Positions 1 to 8,208 of a stretch of DNA of 50,240 bases are shown in pieces. This stretch comes from Verrucomicrobiota bacterium (GTDB lineage: Bacteria; Verrucomicrobiota; Verrucomicrobiia; Opitutales; Opitutaceae), in assembly GCA_025361935.1 (NCBI GenBank), contig JANYJB010000101.1:1-50240 (forward strand). The letters run 5' to 3'. The notes below the pieces were generated by a model. That model saw only the letters and a list, made by a program, of their open reading frames with translations. It searched no databases and was not told the DNA's origin. The position numbers and the translations under genes are program-made. Position 1 is the stretch's first letter, and every line of letters starts with the position of its first letter.

Positions 1-652
1 GGCGGTAGAGCGACAGAATCATGCCGAAGAGACCGTAGAACTGGGTGCCTTCCATGCACTGGCCGAAGAGGAAAATATTTTTCGCGAGGAGCTGCTTGTT
101 CTCGGCCTTGGTGAGGTCGAGGTCGCGGCGGAGGTTGCGGGAGTTGTTTACGACAAAGGCGTTTTTCTTCGCGATGGTCGGGACGTCTTCGAACATGGCC
201 TCGCACTCGTGCGGGTTGATGCCGAGCGACGAAATCATGTAGAGCAGCGAGTCGGCGTGGATGTTCTCCTCGTGCGCGTGGCGGCCGAGAACGAGCTTGA
301 GCTCGGGAGCGGTGACGAGCTCGCGGACGACGTGCTGGATGTTGTCACCGACGATGCCCTCGGCGGCGGAGAAATAACCGATGCCCATGCGAATGATCCA
401 GCGCTCGACGTCGGAGACGAGCTTGGTGTCGCGCCACTGCTCGATGTCCTTGCCCATGGGAACGTCCTCGGGCTCCCAATGGTTGGCCTTCATCGTGCGG
501 TAGAGGTCGTAGGCCCACTGGTATTTCAGCGGGAGGAGATTAAAGCACATGGTCTGGTGACCATTGATGACCTTTTTGGCCGAGAAGGCGGCCTCGGCTT
601 TTTCCTGGTCGAGGACGAATGTCTTGGCGCCGACTTGAAACGTTTTCTGCAT
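1..652 (-). CDS. nrdB: Ribonucleoside-diphosphate reductase R2 subunit (class I, Ic-like), 3' end outside window
   Basis: This is the radical-generating small subunit of class I ribonucleotide reductase; it makes deoxynucleotides together with NrdA, which is not in this window. Only the first 217 residues are present. The ferritin-like core is recognisable: first carboxylate ligand Glu98 (in GYFSAAEGIVGDNI), then Glu129 and His132 in EENIHADSLLYM. The 31- and 34-residue spacings match E. coli Asp84, Glu115 and His118. By that register the tyrosyl-radical position (E. coli Tyr122) is Leu136, codon 245-247. Glu as first ligand and a non-tyrosine at the radical site are features of the class Ic (Mn/Fe, Chlamydia-type) R2 group, so a tyrosyl radical is unlikely here. 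The ATG at 650-652 is the only start that fits the family's N-terminus; no clear Shine-Dalgarno precedes it. The gene is truncated by the window edge, not visibly broken. Confidence 0.93.
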   Translation of the reverse strand, partial: MQKTFQVGAKTFVLDQEKAEAAFSAKKVINGHQTMCFNLLPLKYQWAYDLYRTMKANHWEPEDVPMGKDIEQWRDTKLVSDVERWIIRMGIGYFSAAEGIVGDNIQHVVRELVTAPELKLVLGRHAHEENIHADSLLYMISSLGINPHECEAMFEDVPTIAKKNAFVVNNSRNLRRDLDLTKAENKQLLAKNIFLFGQCMEGTQFYGLFGMILSLYR

Positions 653-1107
653 GGCTGAAGTTGAAAAATGACTACGGAGCGGAAGGGATGAAGGAGTGGA
701 TTAAACGAGGGAAAACCGAGCTGGTCGGGCTGCTGTTTTTAACACGGACAAGCCCCAAGCGAACCTAAGTTGCTGGAACTTGCTGACGCGTTACTAACCA
801 CAACCCGTAGTGGTCCTTTACCAAATATGCCACTACCCATGGGTTTTCGCTAAAACTCCGTCAATCGGTTTATCATCCCTCGGGTGATAATTTTAAAGAA
901 ATTTAGGCTTGCGGATGCGGGCGTGAGCCTACCCCCACGGAAAATCCGCCAAAAACAGGCAAAAAGGCGCGCAAGCGTAATCCCCGAAGCCCGATTTCAT
1001 CGGGTCGAGAGACAGGCGCAAATATCCTTGAGAGCGGCCGCGCCGCCCTTGGGATTTTTTAAAAACCAACGGGGCGACTTTACGCCGCAAAAACCAGCCG
1101 ACGGCCC
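653..1107. promoter_or_regulatory. Intergenic region upstream of nrdB with competing inverted repeats
   Basis: This is 455 bp with no supportable gene. It must hold the nrdB promoter (minus strand). At 797-845 three related segments can pair in two exclusive ways: accac (797-801) with gtggt (810-814), or aacccgtagtgg (802-813) with ccactac (830-836) continuing into gggtt (841-845). A regulator site or a transcript switch ahead of nrdB is possible. I do not see a clean NrdR-box pair. A small inverted repeat (catccctcggg/tgat area near 875-895) lies further upstream. The rest shows nothing I can name. Confidence 0.35.
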
Positions 1108-3027
1108 TTACGGAATCCGCAGCTTGGTGCCGAGGGAGAGGGCGTTGGGGTTGATGATGATGTCGCGGTTGGCGGCAAGGATTTCAGTCCAACGGCCGGC
1201 GCTGCCGTAGTAGTGCTTGGCAATGCTGTAGAGGGAGTCTCCGGCGGTGACGACGTGCGTGCGCGGCTCGGTGGCGGCGGGGGCAGCTTTGGCGGGCGCA
1301 AGGGCGGCGGCCGGCGCGGCGGGAGGGGCGAACATCGGTGTCGCCAGTGTAACGGCGGCCGGAGCGATGGCGGTGGTGCGGGAAGGCGCGGCCGAACCGG
1401 CACCCGCGCCGGCGAGGGCGAGGCGGGTCTTGAGATTGAGGGCTTCGTTGGCGTTGGCGGCGGCCTGGGCCTGGGTCTGGCGGAGCTGTTCGCGGACGGC
1501 GGCGAGGTCGTTGGTGGAAGTCTCGGCGATCTGGCGGGCGTTGGTCATGTCGCGGACGGCTTGGTCGAGGGACGCGGTGCGCTCGGCGAGGGCTTTTTGG
1601 GTGTCGGCGAGCTGGGCGCTGAGTGCGGCGACCTTCTCGGCGGAGGCGGCGGTGGCCTCGGCCTGAGGACGGAGGGTGGCGAGCTCCTTGTTGGCGGCGG
1701 CGAGCTTGTCGGAGAGGGTGGCGCGTTCGCCGTCGATGTTGGCGAGGGCTTTCTGAAGGCGGTCGATCTCGGCCTGGTTGAGCGTGTAGGTGCGGAGGGC
1801 GGCATCGAGCTTGGCGTCGGCGTCGACCTTGGCTTTTTCAAGATTGGCGAGGCGGGCGGTGGCCACCTCGGTCTCGGCGACGGCGGGCGCGGCGGCTGGA
1901 ACGGCGGCGGCGGTCTTGGCATCGGCGAGTTGCTGGGCGAGGGCGTCACGTTCCTTGGTGAGGGCGGCCACGGCGTCGGCAAAGTGGTCGCGGTCGGCCT
2001 TCAGGACGGCGATGCCGGTGGCGGAAAGGCCGCCGCTGGCGGACTTGAGGGAGGAGAGTTCATCTTGGGCGTCGGCGAGGGCTTTGGCGGTGGCGTTGAA
2101 CTTGGAGCGGAGTTCGGCGACGGCAGGCGACTCGGCGGTGGAAGCGGACTTGGCGGCTTCCAAGTCGCCGCGAAGACGGGCGGCTTCGGCGGTGGCGTTC
2201 TCAAGCTGGGCGGCGAGCGAGAGGCGTTCGGCGCTGGCTTTGTCGGCGGTGGACTTGAGGCTGGCGGTCTCGGATTCGGCAAGACGCTGGGCATCCTGGG
2301 CGGCAAGCGCGGACTTGTTGGCGGCGGCGAGCGCGGACTGGAGAGCGAGACGGTCACCCTCAGCCTTGGCAAAGGCGGCGCGGAGTTGGTCGCGTTCGCG
2401 GCGAACGAGATCGAGTTCGCCGGAACTCACAGTGGAAGTGGCGGGGACGGAAGCGGCGGAAAGGCGGGACTGAAGGTCGGTGAGCTCCTTGTCCTTGTTG
2501 GCAAGGGCGGACTCGGCGATGGCGAGGCGCTTGTTGGCGTCGGCGAGCTGCGCGGTGAACGAGGCCTTGACGCGATCGGTCTCCTTCCAAGACGAGGCGA
2601 GCTCCTCGCTGAGTTGTTTTTTCTCGGCTTCGACGGCGGGGTCTTGGACGGGCAAGATGGGCGAGGCGGCGGAGATGGGGCTGTCGGCGAGCGCGGGTTC
2701 GGAGCGCGGGGCGGCGAGGCGCTTGTTGGCGTCGGCGAGCTGCGCGGGGGTCAGCGTGGCGGTGATGGTTTCAAGGGCTTTGCCGGTCGCGCCGTTGGTG
2801 GCGGCGACGTTGAGCCACACGTATGCCTGCACGGGGTCGTAGGCGGGGCCGGTGCGGTCGGCGTAGGCGAGGCCGAGGTTGTATTGCGCGATGGCGTTGC
2901 CCTTCTCGGCCTTGGCCCGGAGCGCTTCGATGTCGGACAATGTCAGGGCGAAGACCGGGGAAGTGAGCAGCAGGGCGAACAAAAAGCTGCGAATGAAGGC
3001 GGGGCGGGAGAGGCTGGTTTGGTTCAT
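1108..3027 (-). CDS. Secreted Sel1-repeat / coiled-coil / LysM-domain protein
   Basis: Product of 639 aa. A signal peptide (about residues 1-27, ending SPVFA) is followed by one Sel1-like helical repeat (about 30-80, with KGNAIAQYNLGLAYADR). Then comes a very long Ala/Glu/Lys/Leu-rich coiled coil (about 130-540, many LADANKRL-type heptads). An Ala/Pro linker (about 545-585) leads to a C-terminal LysM domain (about 588-639, starting THVVTAGDSLYSIAKHYYG). LysM binds peptidoglycan glycan strands, so the protein probably sits in the periplasm, anchored to the wall by its C-terminus with an extended rod. The ATG at 3025-3027 gives the signal peptide directly. It is divergent from the envelope operon at 3341. 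The function is not known. The strong codon bias creates long open frames on the other strand, which I regard as shadows. Confidence 0.88.
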   Translation of the reverse strand: MNQTSLSRPAFIRSFLFALLLTSPVFALTLSDIEALRAKAEKGNAIAQYNLGLAYADRTGPAYDPVQAYVWLNVAATNGATGKALETITATLTPAQLADANKRLAAPRSEPALADSPISAASPILPVQDPAVEAEKKQLSEELASSWKETDRVKASFTAQLADANKRLAIAESALANKDKELTDLQSRLSAASVPATSTVSSGELDLVRRERDQLRAAFAKAEGDRLALQSALAAANKSALAAQDAQRLAESETASLKSTADKASAERLSLAAQLENATAEAARLRGDLEAAKSASTAESPAVAELRSKFNATAKALADAQDELSSLKSASGGLSATGIAVLKADRDHFADAVAALTKERDALAQQLADAKTAAAVPAAAPAVAETEVATARLANLEKAKVDADAKLDAALRTYTLNQAEIDRLQKALANIDGERATLSDKLAAANKELATLRPQAEATAASAEKVAALSAQLADTQKALAERTASLDQAVRDMTNARQIAETSTNDLAAVREQLRQTQAQAAANANEALNLKTRLALAGAGAGSAAPSRTTAIAPAAVTLATPMFAPPAAPAAALAPAKAAPAATEPRTHVVTAGDSLYSIAKHYYGSAGRWTEILAANRDIIINPNALSLGTKLRIP

Positions 3028-3340: not shown

Positions 3341-4597
3341 ATGAAATTCCTCCGCATTCTCGCACTGCTGGCCACCCTCACGGCCCCGGCTTTGATCCCT
3401 GTTTCCGCCCAATCCACGGTCGTTACCGAAACTGAAAAAGGCGCGCCCGCCACCACCGTGGTGACGAAGACCTACGTCAAGGACGGCAAGACCGTTACCG
3501 AGCGCGCCACCACCACGACGCAGCAGGAGCGCGAGGCCGTCTCCAAAACCTACAAGGCCGCCGTCTTCGTTTCCAACCGCGCCGGCAAGGATTGCGATGC
3601 CAAGGTCTCCGCCCTCGAAGACTACGTCACCGGCCAGGTGACCGATCTCGGCATCTCCGTCATCAGCCGCGAAACCGCCGCGAACGCCGTCGCCCAACTC
3701 GACGGCGCCGCCGCCAACGCCACCGACAAGGCTCTCGCCGAAGGCTCCTCCGCCGTCCGCCTCGCGCAGACGCTCGGCGCCGACTATCTGCTTCAAGTCA
3801 CGCTCACCGGCTTCGACACCGCCGCCCGCACCATCGACGCCTACGGCGTGCAGGCGGTCAACGTGACCGACACCGCGCGCGTCACCTACAAAATTCTCGA
3901 CGGCCAGACCGGCGCCAGCCTCACCGCCGATACCGTGAAAGTTTCCAAGCTCGTCCAGCAGAGCCAGACCTCCGCCTCCGCGCAGGCCGACGTGCTCGAC
4001 GAGCTGCTCGCCGAAGCCTCCAAGAAAGTCGCCGCCAGCCTGAAGACGCGCATCGATGCCGGCCGCATCACCGCGCCTTCCGCCGCGCAGGGCCTCGTCA
4101 CCGTCACCATCCAGACCGAGGCGGCCGACCTCACCATCCCCGACGTGCGTATCGGCGTTGAAAATACAGTCACCATTTCCGAAAGCAAATTCAAGGTCTC
4201 GCCCCTCTCGGTCAACGTCGAGGTAGACGGCATCTCCGTCGGCTCCGCGCCCGGCGAGATCACCGTCAAACCCGGCCTGAGTAAGCTCCGCGTCACCCGC
4301 GAAGGCTTCAAACCCTGGGAGCGCACCGTCAACTTCATCAAGGGCCAGAAGCTCACCGTCGCGCTCGAATTGAGCGAGGAAGGCTACGCCCGCTGGAAGG
4401 ATTCCACCGCATTCCTCAACGGCCTCAAGAACGGCGCCAAGCTCACCGACGGCGATGTCAAAGTCCTCGAAGGCAAGGCGAAGTCCCTCGAACAAAGCGG
4501 CTTCAAGGTGGACACCAAGGACGCCCCCGCCGTCACCGTGAACAACATCGACCGCGCCCTCTTCGGCCCCGATGCAACCATTCCGGCCCGCAAATAA
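3341..4597 (+). CDS. Exported CsgG-like protein with C-terminal PEGA domain
   Basis: Product of 418 aa. A signal peptide (about 1-23, ending PVSAQ) is followed by a Thr/Val-rich stretch (25-62). An anticodon-binding/CsgG-like fold (about 72-238) shows the pattern GADYLLQVTLTGFDT and a closing helix ELLAEASKKVAASLK. A PEGA domain follows (about 289-345: VNVEVDGISVGSAPGEI, then LRVTREGFKPWERTV). PEGA domains are common in bacterial surface and periplasmic proteins. First gene of a five-gene same-strand run, with 19 bp to the next gene, which is a shorter CsgG-like protein without PEGA. Together with the LpoB and YcfL relatives downstream this points to an envelope or cell-wall role, probably periplasmic or at the outer membrane. 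The precise function is unknown. Confidence 0.78.
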   Translation: MKFLRILALLATLTAPALIPVSAQSTVVTETEKGAPATTVVTKTYVKDGKTVTERATTTTQQEREAVSKTYKAAVFVSNRAGKDCDAKVSALEDYVTGQVTDLGISVISRETAANAVAQLDGAAANATDKALAEGSSAVRLAQTLGADYLLQVTLTGFDTAARTIDAYGVQAVNVTDTARVTYKILDGQTGASLTADTVKVSKLVQQSQTSASAQADVLDELLAEASKKVAASLKTRIDAGRITAPSAAQGLVTVTIQTEAADLTIPDVRIGVENTVTISESKFKVSPLSVNVEVDGISVGSAPGEITVKPGLSKLRVTREGFKPWERTVNFIKGQKLTVALELSEEGYARWKDSTAFLNGLKNGAKLTDGDVKVLEGKAKSLEQSGFKVDTKDAPAVTVNNIDRALFGPDATIPARK

Positions 4598-4616
4598 CCC
4601 CGCACGTTTTCCCGTC

Positions 4617-5510
4617 ATGAAACTTCTCAAAATTATTTCCCTGCTCGCCCTCGGCGCCCTGCTCACCGGCACCGCCGCCATTGCCCAGGAAGCTCCCGGT
4701 AAAAAGAAACTCGCCATCACCAAGATCGCGCCGACCGAGTCCGTGAAGGCTCGCATGGCCAAGCAGGGCGTCGGTCTCTCGCTTTCCAGCGTGATCGAGG
4801 CGCTCGACTCTCAGGTTTACGACCGCGTGCTCAACACGAAGCGCTTCGAAATCCTCGAACGCTCCGACGCCGACGCGCTCGCCAAGGAGGCCCAGGCCGC
4901 CGGCGCCGCCTTCCAGTTCCAGCAGGCCGACTACATCCTCACCATCCGCGTGGACGGCTTCAATGACCGTATGGAGACGCGCACGCTCGCCGCCCTCGGC
5001 AAGACCGTCACCGCCCGTGTGATCGAGCTCTCCGCCGTCGCCAAGATCACCGAGGTCGCCACCCAGCGCGCCATCGCCAGCACCAACTTCCAGGTCTCGC
5101 GCCGCCAGGCCGACCAGCTCTCCGCCAACACCACCGAGAAGGTCGGCGAGTCCAGCGACGTGCTCATCACCGACATCACCCGCGAGATGGCCCAAAAGAT
5201 CGGCTCGCGCGTCGCCGACGCCGTCTTCCCCGCCCGCGTCATCGGCAAGCGCGACAAGGTCGTCACCATCAACCGCAACGACACCTCCGGCATCAAGGTC
5301 GGCCAAGTCTGGGAAGTGTTCACCCTAGGCGACGAGCTCGTCGATCCCGACACCGGCGACAAGAGCCGCGAGGAAATCAGCGTCGGCACCGTGAAAATCG
5401 CCCGCGTCACCCCTCAGAATTCGCAGGCCGACATCCTCACCGACACCGGCATCGACCGTCTCGCCATCGTCCGCCTGAAGGAAGACGTGCCCGAGCCGGC
5501 CGCCGAATAA
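4617..5510 (+). CDS. Exported CsgG-family protein
   Basis: Product of 297 aa. Signal peptide of about 23 residues (MKLLKIISLLALGALLTG, ending AAIAQ); no lipobox Cys, unlike E. coli CsgG. The CsgG-type pattern is clear: VYDRVLNTKRFEILERSDAD (about residues 76-95), then ADYILTIRVDGFNDR and a long C-terminal helix region with REMAQKIGSRVADAVFP. The last about 95 residues form a beta-rich tail (GQVWEVFTLGDELVDPDTG). I chose the ATG at 4617 over an in-frame ATG at 4572 because the latter overlaps the upstream gene and would bury the signal peptide. It shares the fold of the gene before it and, more distantly, of the LpoB-like protein at the end of the operon. Confidence 0.8.
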   Translation: MKLLKIISLLALGALLTGTAAIAQEAPGKKKLAITKIAPTESVKARMAKQGVGLSLSSVIEALDSQVYDRVLNTKRFEILERSDADALAKEAQAAGAAFQFQQADYILTIRVDGFNDRMETRTLAALGKTVTARVIELSAVAKITEVATQRAIASTNFQVSRRQADQLSANTTEKVGESSDVLITDITREMAQKIGSRVADAVFPARVIGKRDKVVTINRNDTSGIKVGQVWEVFTLGDELVDPDTGDKSREEISVGTVKIARVTPQNSQADILTDTGIDRLAIVRLKEDVPEPAAE

Positions 5511-5587
5511 TTTCTCCCGCCGAAGCCGTCCCTTGTCCAGGGGGCAGCTTCTCGTTTTCCAGTTTCGCTTCAGCCAACATCCATCGC

Positions 5588-7162
5588 ATGCAATCCACCT
5601 CCCTTCTTCACGCGTCGGGGCGCACGTTCGCCCTTGTCATTGGTGGCGTCTCGCTGCTTTTCGCCGTGACCGGCTGCCAGACCTACCAGCAGCAGTCCGC
5701 CGAACTCTCGACTTCGTTTCACAACAGCAACATCGCCGCCGCGGTGGCCAACGTTAACAAGGAAGCCAAGGCCAACGAGGGCGGGAAAGACGAGATCCTG
5801 TGGAAGCTCGAACAAGGCGCCACGCTCCGCACCGCGGCACTCACCGATCCTGCGCAGTTGCCGCCGCCCCCCGTCGTCATACCGAAGGATCCGGCCACGC
5901 CACCTGCGCCCCCTCCCACCCCGGCCGAGATCACTTCCAGTTACGCCAAACGCTCCATCGCCGCCTTCGACCAAGCCGAGGAAAAGGTGAACTACTGGGA
6001 AGAGCAGGCGAAGATCAAGGTCGGCTCCGAGGCTCTCTCCATCGTCACCAACCTCGCCAACATTCCCTACCGCGGGCGCACCTACGACAAGGTGATGCTC
6101 GATACCTACAACACCCTCAACTACCTCCAGCTCGGCCAGACGGATTCCGCGCGCGTCTCCCTCAACCGCGCCCTCCAGCGCCAGCGCGACGCCGTCGAGC
6201 TGAACCAGAAGCGCATCGCCGAGGCCCAGGAAGAAGCCGCCAAGGCCCGCGAGGGCAAGGTCAAGGACGAGAAAGGCCAGAGCGCCTCCTACGACGTGGA
6301 CAAGGCCCAGGCCGATCCCAGAACCGGCCCCGCCCTCAGCGCCGCCCTCGCCGAATCCACCGCCCCCATCAAAGCCTACGGCGATTACGTGAATCCCTTC
6401 GCCGTGTTCCTCGACGGCCTTTTCTTCACCGTGTGCGGTGAAAACGGCTCCGACTGGGAGCGCGGCCGCAAGTCCTTCGAGCGCCTCGCCGGCCTCGTCC
6501 CAGAAAACCCCTACGTCGCCGCCGACGCCGCGCTCGGTGCCGCTGCCGCCGAGGGCAAGGCCCCCGCAGGCGTGACCTACGTCATCTTCGAGACGGGCAC
6601 CGGTCCCGCCCGTGACCAGCTCCGCATCGACATCCCCACCTTCATCGTGACCAGCCGCCTCGCCTACGTCGGCGCCGCCTTCCCCAAGCTCAAGTTCAAC
6701 GGCGACTACGTGGCCACCCTCTCGGTCGGCACCTCCGCCGGCGCCCCTGCGGTCAACACCGCCACCGTGGCCAGCATGGACAGCGTCGTCGCCAATGACT
6801 TCAAAAACGAGTGGCCCACCACGCTCACCAAAACACTCATCGGCACCGCCACCAAAGCCATCGTCCAGGCCATCGTCCAGAAACAGATGAGCGACCAAAA
6901 CGCCGCGCTCGGCTTCCTCGGCGGCCTCGCCATGACCGCCGTCAACGCCTCCACCAACATCGCCGACACCCGCACCTGGCTCACCCTGCCCAAGGAGTTT
7001 CAATACGCCCGCCTCGCCACCCCGGCCGACCGCAAACTCACCCTCACCGCCGGCACCGAGACAAAGACGATTACTTTGGACCCCGGCGCCGTTAACGTTG
7101 TCTATGTGAAGAGCGTCTCCACCTCCGCCCCGCTCCTCGTCTCCCAGATTATCCTCAAATGA
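5588..7162 (+). CDS. COG3014-type lipoprotein
   Basis: Product of 524 aa with a lipoprotein signal: lipobox FAVTGC puts the lipidated cysteine at residue 30. The body begins with helical repeats containing SFHNSNIAAAVANV and later VMLDTYNTLNYLQLGQTDSARVSLNRALQRQ, a TPR-like helical pattern. This combination is typical of the COG3014 uncharacterised lipoprotein family. A Pro-rich insert (about 97-115) and a Lys/Glu-rich stretch (about 205-235) follow. Its last codon overlaps the next gene by ATGA, so the two are almost certainly co-translated. The constant association with YcfL and LpoB relatives suggests an outer-membrane lipoprotein tied to peptidoglycan synthesis. That link is inference. 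Confidence 0.78.
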   Translation: MQSTSLLHASGRTFALVIGGVSLLFAVTGCQTYQQQSAELSTSFHNSNIAAAVANVNKEAKANEGGKDEILWKLEQGATLRTAALTDPAQLPPPPVVIPKDPATPPAPPPTPAEITSSYAKRSIAAFDQAEEKVNYWEEQAKIKVGSEALSIVTNLANIPYRGRTYDKVMLDTYNTLNYLQLGQTDSARVSLNRALQRQRDAVELNQKRIAEAQEEAAKAREGKVKDEKGQSASYDVDKAQADPRTGPALSAALAESTAPIKAYGDYVNPFAVFLDGLFFTVCGENGSDWERGRKSFERLAGLVPENPYVAADAALGAAAAEGKAPAGVTYVIFETGTGPARDQLRIDIPTFIVTSRLAYVGAAFPKLKFNGDYVATLSVGTSAGAPAVNTATVASMDSVVANDFKNEWPTTLTKTLIGTATKAIVQAIVQKQMSDQNAALGFLGGLAMTAVNASTNIADTRTWLTLPKEFQYARLATPADRKLTLTAGTETKTITLDPGAVNVVYVKSVSTSAPLLVSQIILK

Positions 7163-7590
7163 AAACCTCCCGCCATCTCATCGCCGGCCCCGTGCTCACC
7201 GCCGGCCTGCTCGCGCTCCTCCCGGGTTGCGCCACCAACGTCAACACCGTCGAGCGCGCCCAGTCCCAGGCCACTCCCCACTACGTCTCCGACAAACGCG
7301 TCGTCACCGACAACACCCTCGCCCGCACCATCCGCGTCAACTCCATCAATCAGGCCACCGTCTCCGGCGAGCTCCTCAAGATTCAGGCCGAAGTCGAAAA
7401 CCTCAAAAGCGACCTCCGCTCCGTCCGCTACAAATTCGAGTGGATTGATCGCGACGGCATGGCGGTGAACTCGCCCACCGACGGCTGGAAAATCCTCAAC
7501 TTCTCCGGACGCGAAACCCTCCGCATCTCCACCGTCGCCACCTCTCCCGCCGCCGTCGATTTCGTCCTCAAATTCAGCGAACTCAAATAA
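7159..7590 (+). CDS. YcfL-like lipoprotein (DUF1425)
   Basis: Product of 143 aa. The lipobox LLPGC places the lipidated Cys at residue 24. The mature part has the DUF1425/YcfL pattern: a short N-terminal segment, TVSGELLKIQAEVENLKSDL, then YKFEWIDRDGMAV and WKILNFSGRETL. YcfL has no firm biochemical role. In E. coli its gene lies immediately before lpoB, the same order as here (9-bp gap to the LpoB-like gene). Starts inside the stop of the upstream gene (ATGA). Confidence 0.82.
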   Translation: MKTSRHLIAGPVLTAGLLALLPGCATNVNTVERAQSQATPHYVSDKRVVTDNTLARTIRVNSINQATVSGELLKIQAEVENLKSDLRSVRYKFEWIDRDGMAVNSPTDGWKILNFSGRETLRISTVATSPAAVDFVLKFSELK

Positions 7591-7599
7591 TCTCCACCC

Positions 7600-8208
7600 A
7601 TGACCACACACCGCTTCAAAACCCTCCTGCTCGCCGGCGTCCTTGCGCCCGCCACCCTCCTCGTCACCGGCTGTCAGACGACCTCCGAGACCCGCACCAT
7701 TGATGCCACCGGCCCGCAGGCCCTCAACACTAGCAACATCAACTCGCAGGACTGGGCCAACGCCGCCGACCAACTCGTCGGCTCGCTGCTCTCCGGCGGC
7801 GCCCTCGACAAGGCCCCCGTCCAGCCCGCCGTCCTCGCCGTGGACCGCATCATCAACAACACCCAGCTCAACATCGACACCGATCTCCTCATCAAAAAAA
7901 TCCGCGTCGCCCTCTCGCAAACCGGCAAGGTCGCCGTCACGAACACGATGGGCTTGGGCGAACGCGCCGTCGTCGCCTCCGAAGCCGCCGAGCTCGATGA
8001 AATGACTACCGGCAAGAAGGCCAAGGTCATCGTCCCCAACTTCACGCTCTACGGAAAGCTCATACAGCAGACCGACCGCTCCAACGGCGTTACCCAGAAC
8101 ACCTACAGCTTCCAGATGTCGCTGGTGAACGTGAAGAACGGCCTCACCGTCTGGGAAGACGAACGCCAGATCGCCAAGCAGACGAAGAAGTCCACCGTCG
8201 GCTGGTAA
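7600..8208 (+). CDS. lpoB: LpoB-like penicillin-binding-protein activator lipoprotein
   Basis: Product of 202 aa. The lipobox LVTGC gives lipidated Cys25. The C-terminal about 145 residues match the LpoB domain: VLAVDRIINNTQLNIDTDLL, then KIRVALSQTGKVAVTN and YSFQMSLVNVKNGLTVWEDE. In E. coli, outer-membrane LpoB reaches through the wall to activate PBP1B. Whether this distant relative binds a class A PBP here cannot be told from sequence. The linker after Cys25 is short (about 30 residues), so the reach would be limited. Last gene of the operon; a strong terminator follows 31 bp after the stop. Confidence 0.85.
   Translation: MTTHRFKTLLLAGVLAPATLLVTGCQTTSETRTIDATGPQALNTSNINSQDWANAADQLVGSLLSGGALDKAPVQPAVLAVDRIINNTQLNIDTDLLIKKIRVALSQTGKVAVTNTMGLGERAVVASEAAELDEMTTGKKAKVIVPNFTLYGKLIQQTDRSNGVTQNTYSFQMSLVNVKNGLTVWEDERQIAKQTKKSTVGW

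Follow-up and report, generated by a model that had tools for sequence, protein, structure and literature searches.

The class Ic R2 protein of Chlamydia trachomatis (structures 1SYY, 4D8F and 4M1I) has Glu as its first metal ligand and Phe at the site of the radical tyrosine. The passages of PMC4118035 and PMC8463856 that deal with it describe Mn/Fe chemistry and a relay through Tyr222 and Trp51, and PMC4118035 also gives the role of Phe197 between the metals. Leu, Ile and Val were reported at the class Ic Phe site in R2c proteins by Hogbom (2010), as cited in a part of PMC3824934; the window protein described below carries the same substitution and, as a guess, may belong to the very group that was meant. 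The ferritin-like subunits of class O RNRs have 'Phe or Leu ... much like class Ic RNRs' according to an excerpt of PMC9531940, where they are called minimal, whereas the window protein belongs to the full-size class I R2 family. The Leu-for-Tyr substitution is already known, and the verrucomicrobial Leu lineage looks uncharacterised in the open literature searched: nothing was found there on a Leu-type radical site in Verrucomicrobia nrdB or on the NrdB of opitut bacteria, and the passages found on class Ic RNR in connection with Verrucomicrobia concern Chlamydiae.

A truncated nrdB and its radical site

In this study, we analysed an nrdB gene at one end of the window, that is, the whole stretch of 50,240 nucleotides from a member of the Opitutaceae. 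The gene starts with an ATG at 652-650 and encodes 217 residues before its frame runs off position 1; because the window starts at base 1 of contig C101, the gene has been cut by the assembly (Table 1). Tyr230, Glu235, His238 and Tyr347 lie past residue 217, and the last ligands and Tyr347 were taken from relatives that are 98-99% identical over the shared part.

Table 1 Positions of nrdB, its key residues and associated features (window coordinates unless a locus is named)
Feature	Position	Strand	Remarks
nrdB, first 217 aa of ~361-aa R2	2..652	-	Pfam PF00268 1.5e-33; full-length relatives 361-362 aa; 3' part past contig end
Trp59, equivalent of E. coli Trp48 and C. trachomatis Trp51 (electron relay)	476..478	-	
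Glu98, first metal ligand (E. coli Asp84, C. trachomatis Glu89)	359..361	-	alignment
Glu129, metal ligand (E. coli Glu115, Chlamydia Glu120)	266..268	-	alignment
His132, metal ligand (E. coli His118, Chlamydia His123)	257..259	-	alignment
Leu136, site of radical tyrosine (E. coli Tyr122, C. trachomatis Phe127)	245..247	-	CTG; + strand cag
Tyr138, two residues past Leu136	239..241	-	Tyr also in 11/11 Glu/Phe R2s compared
Glu201, fourth metal ligand (C. trachomatis Glu193)	50..52	-	
Phe205, equivalent of C. trachomatis Phe197, between metals	38..40	-	alignment
Two NrdR-box-like palindromes, tentative	798..845 (798-813, 830-845; 32 bp apart)		upstream of nrdB
Tandem ligand-less R2 paralog, upstream of Leu-type R2	L116 1461-2510	+	also L197-L210

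The first three ligands align without gaps with their counterparts in E. coli and Chlamydia, and the distance from the first ligand to the radical site is 38 ungapped residues in the window protein, C. trachomatis R2, a verrucomicrobial Phe-type R2 and the E. coli protein. Leu136 shares its column with E. coli Tyr122 and C. trachomatis Phe127. The earlier note had claimed this register from a comparison with E. coli, together with Leu at the radical-tyrosine position and Glu as the first metal ligand, and all three were borne out; a register shift is ruled out by the gap-free alignment. Among solved structures, those of the C. trachomatis class Ic R2 come nearest to the 217-residue fragment (122 bits). 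With a 21-sequence profile they score 304 bits over 342 profile positions, ahead of 6Y2N (265), another Phe protein, and of the next R2 (152). These matches, and the lack of a Tyr at the site, support the suggestion that the enzyme works without a tyrosyl radical and resembles that of Chlamydia. The NrdB of locus L002, a near-identical relative of the window protein, passes the cut-off of NCBIfam PRK07209 (330.5 vs 309 bits) and that of PRK09614.1-5 as well (243.7 vs 237); the truncated window protein passes neither, scoring 167 with PRK07209.

Distribution and ancestry of the Leu-type R2

The Leu variant is real and common to many Verrucomicrobia. R2 proteins were taken from loci L001-L173 and L196-L215, and the sequences read were part of the matches, namely the best 80 of 578 loci, 30 phylum-sample loci, 60 stretches and 20 further loci. 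An alignment with R2 subgroups and a check for Leu had been proposed at the outset; among 194 distinct proteins, the window's own excluded, Leu occupies the site in every one of the 154 whose identity to the L002 NrdB is 70% or more, the radical site itself not being counted. All six ligands are present in 152 of the 154, one of the other two being partly uncovered at the ligands and one coming from a gene split over two frames. With duplicates counted, residues 98 and 136 are Glu/Leu in 174 of 212 rows, Glu/Phe in 10 and Asp/Tyr in nine, the rows left being ligand-less paralogs (16) and split or broken frames (three). The 174 Glu/Leu rows use CTC (76), CTG (67), TTG (13), CTA (8), CTT (6) and TTA (4). 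An error of register or sequencing, for which the contig end and the fragmented assembly might speak, has next to no chance of explaining Leu136: the alignment is gap-free, all 154 close relatives have Leu, and a sequencing error is very unlikely because six different Leu codons occur across these rows.

The 68-row reference alignment has 33 rows with Glu and Leu, 11 with Glu and Phe and 22 with Asp and Tyr; the two exceptions are a Glu/Tyr protein from Blattabacterium and a ligand-less Gln/Leu copy. Glu98, Glu129, His132, Glu201, Glu235, His238, Trp59, Tyr230, Tyr347 and Leu136 are invariant in the 21 full-length relatives. The family to which the window's genome belongs was represented by 252 genomes, of which 204 contain a match to the L002 NrdB (142 of the 165 that are at least 90% complete) and 48 gave none. 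A sample of the phylum yielded matches in 113 of 387 genomes at E 1e-10, a part of which carry the Phe or Tyr type.

Several side observations came from the same searches. Loci L140 and L209 hold Leu-type R2 genes that are seemingly split over two frames. Window-type NrdB proteins also occur on contigs labelled Rubrivivax (L029, 86% identity) and Paceibacterota (L081, 85%), both of which are probably mis-binned. A scan of viral contigs with the 21-sequence alignment gave one weak relative only (23% identity), and in plasmid and phage records (305 and 1876 matched, respectively) even the best places fell short of 60% identity to the L002 protein.

We built a maximum-likelihood tree from 68 R2s (IQ-TREE) and rooted it by choice on a class Ib NrdF; in it the Leu proteins fall into a clade of their own (SH-aLRT 99.7/bootstrap 98). 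Its sister is a clade (97.8/99) of haloarchaeal, chlamydial-type and Phyllobacterium/6Y2N Glu/Phe proteins, and the superclade of the Leu lineage and the Chlamydia type has support of 100/100. Nested inside the Chlamydia-type Glu/Phe clade are Asp/Tyr R2s from plasmids of Pseudomonas, Burkholderia, Acidithiobacillus and Teredinibacter and from an Acinetobacter phage record. Topologies were tested by quick searches under LG+G4 with 40 taxa, a set that kept 10 Leu-type rows and omitted the ligand-less copy, the two second Opitutaceae copies and four further rows. A topology with all Tyr-less R2s in one clade was rejected (AU p 0.0175), as was one with all Glu/Phe R2s together (AU p 0.017). An ancestor shared with the Chlamydia R2c but not with any Tyr-bearing R2, a criterion which we added and which lies outside the published definition of class Ic as far as seen, was not found for the Leu lineage; nor do the Glu/Phe proteins form such a group by themselves, which bears on class Ic as a whole. 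Lundin et al. (2010), as related in a passage of PMC3824934, had already found R2c polyphyletic. Since both constrained trees were rejected, the radical Tyr has either disappeared several times or come back together with Asp in one branch, and the nested Asp/Tyr enzymes, hinting at a regain, make the choice between loss and regain testable.

Class, cofactor and radical transfer

The window protein shares the marks of class Ic. Its first ligand is Glu98, the residue at the radical-Tyr site, Leu136, is redox-inert, the remaining ligands and the Phe197 equivalent are the same as in the C. trachomatis R2, and the Tyr222/Trp51 relay and the C-terminal Tyr have equivalents in Trp59, within the window, and in Tyr230 and Tyr347, from the 21 full-length relatives. 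However, it has Leu where the chlamydial protein has Phe, the Leu type is a separate sister lineage, and identity to the chlamydial R2c amounts to 71 of 204 positions, which counts against a class Ic-like reading.

Other classes were considered and rejected. Classes Ia and Ib have Tyr at the radical site and Asp as the first ligand, in place of which Leu136 and Glu98 are found here. The signature of class Ie is the loss of metal-ligand carboxylates together with a DOPA radical, and the window protein retains its ligands. R2lox was set aside as well, as the best R2lox model gave the L002 protein 40.6 bits against a cut-off of 194, and the relatives carry the C-terminal Tyr347 for NrdA. Class Id combines Tyr with a Glu first ligand; its marks, counted from that ligand, are a Trp at +7 and, for one subgroup, a Lys at +4 (section 7 of PMC6754362). 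The window protein lacks this combination.

One R2 and one PF02867 large subunit were found in the genome, which is 88% complete. Neither a second PF02867 reductase nor NrdD was found in it, an absence that is not proof because at this completeness a second RNR could be missing. As the only R2 found beside one R1, the Leu-type protein is probably the working enzyme of the cell. The nrdA fragment opens contig C21 and retains counterparts of Cys439, Glu441, Cys462, Tyr730 and Tyr731 as well as a C-terminal CEAC; the Cys225 equivalent falls outside the fragment. In the complete genome behind locus L007 the order is nrdB then nrdA, in contrast to the nrdA-nrdB order given for Chlamydia in a passage of PMC3019208, and the NrdA has an ATP cone. 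That both genes are cut at contig ends in the window's genome fits this arrangement.

The genome also contains an nrdR gene. A strict form, CACWANNNNTWGTG, which we take to be the NrdR-box consensus, fits the first of the two palindromes upstream of nrdB and not the second. It occurs upstream of nrdB in seven of the 22 loci tested, window included, and in none of the other 15, counts made without a shuffle control, and the palindromes are only tentatively regarded as NrdR boxes. Rfam gave no match in the window at gathering scores.

Taking the residues, the relatives and the NrdA fragment together, we consider it probable that NrdB is a class Ic-like R2 of the cell's class I RNR, in which a metal centre would serve as the oxidant. 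O2 would activate a dinuclear metal site formed by Glu98, Glu129, His132 and Glu201 with Glu235 and His238, the last two known from full-length relatives. With Leu in place of the redox-active Tyr nearby, the metal centre, which is most likely Mn(IV)/Fe(III) like that of Chlamydia, would keep the oxidising equivalent. From there it would travel by way of Trp59 and then the C-terminal Tyr347 into NrdA, to Tyr730/Tyr731 and finally Cys439 (E. coli numbering). We infer the identity of the metals from relatedness to class Ic, and likewise their oxidation states and the activity of the enzyme. Tree position alone has no power to fix the cofactor, since Asp/Tyr R2s nest in the Chlamydia-type clade. 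An AlphaFold2 model built from the 21-sequence alignment (mean pLDDT 53) was set aside as poor.

The same Tyr-less principle might operate with a dimanganese or diiron centre, such as the Mn2(IV,III) centre of class Id or a new pair. The metal is not determined by the sequence, and Glu as first ligand is common to class Id according to passages of PMC8463856 and PMC6754362; we nevertheless regard such a centre as unlikely, given that the nearest solved relatives are class Ic and that the class Id marks are absent, all 33 Glu/Leu rows having Gly at +4 and Ile or Val at +7.

A tyrosyl radical on another residue appears still more improbable. The best candidates would be Tyr93, on the first-ligand helix, which is Tyr in 30 of 30 Leu-type rows and Phe in 11 of 11 Glu/Phe rows, and Tyr48, which is Tyr in 29 of 30 Leu-type rows and Trp (nine) or Arg (two) in the Glu/Phe rows. 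Yet the Tyr93 column holds Tyr in the E. coli protein as well, whose radical is carried by Tyr122, and the remaining positions with at least 90% Tyr in Leu-type rows are Tyr in all covering Glu/Phe rows, except Tyr302 (six of nine). Tyr138 is not a replacement radical site special to the Leu lineage, because the Glu/Phe R2s compared have Tyr there too (Table 1).

Many free-living bacteria appear to depend on an RNR that lacks the Tyr, probably uses a metal oxidant and can do without even the Phe of Chlamydia. Since Leu cannot be oxidised in the role of the radical Tyr, the Leu-type R2s let radical initiation by metal alone be tested cleanly in naturally occurring proteins.

Tandem R2 paralogs and neighbouring genes

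Fifteen genomes, namely 12 of genus g231, G378, and G772 and G773 of another genus, carry a ligand-less R2 paralog ahead of the Leu-type R2; seven further matching genomes of the latter genus gave one match each only. In all 15 paralogs the equivalents of Glu98, His132, Glu235, His238 and Tyr347 are replaced, the Tyr347 column falling in a poorly alignable stretch, and four or five of the six ligands are lost. The equivalent of Glu129 is kept in 13 of the 15 and that of Glu201 in every one, and the paralogs retain an acidic tail with Asp-Leu at its end. Among the 12 paralogs of g231 the median dN/dS is 0.07 (range 0.04-0.24; 14 of 66 pairs with unsaturated dS), and for the neighbouring Leu-type R2 it is 0.03 (14 of 55 pairs). 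The low median suggests that the ligand-less paralogs are under constraint and not in decay.

These occurrences raise the question whether the Leu copy of the window is itself an accessory or inactive paralog and not a catalytic R2, since ligand-less copies do sit beside Leu-type R2s in these relatives. This is hardly credible: the window copy retains all the ligands that it covers, its full-length relatives retain them all, and no other R2 was found in the genome.

The ligand-less tandem paralog looks like a bacterial beta'. A passage of PMC3824934 states that yeast Rnr4, too, is without diiron-centre residues and that it might serve as a chaperone. As with Rnr4, metal-site residues are lost in the paralogs and the partner R2 is intact; unlike Rnr4, the paralogs are bacterial and lie within the Leu lineage in the tree. 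Among the titles and opening lines of abstracts in the literature searched, no bacterial case of an Rnr4-like R2 was found, and the paralogs may give a bacterial model for the role of beta'. It is conceivable, although we hold it rather doubtful, that the Leu-type R2s of Verrucomicrobiota form a biochemical subclass of their own, with a cofactor or assembly route unlike the Mn/Fe of Chlamydia, and that some lineages work as beta/beta' heterodimers with the metal-less tandem R2, like yeast Rnr2/Rnr4.

In genomes G116 and G207, of the window's family, a second Leu-type R2 lies downstream of the first (L114 2447-3526, plus strand; L115 5396-6643, minus strand). It keeps the ligands, with Asn in place of Tyr230, the Tyr222 equivalent, and His in place of Tyr138. 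In the window itself, a LysM-domain protein is encoded on the minus strand at 1108-3027, beside a plus-strand stretch (3341-8208) with genes for a PEGA-domain protein (3341-4597), a DUF1425 protein (7159-7590) and an LpoB-like protein (7600-8208).
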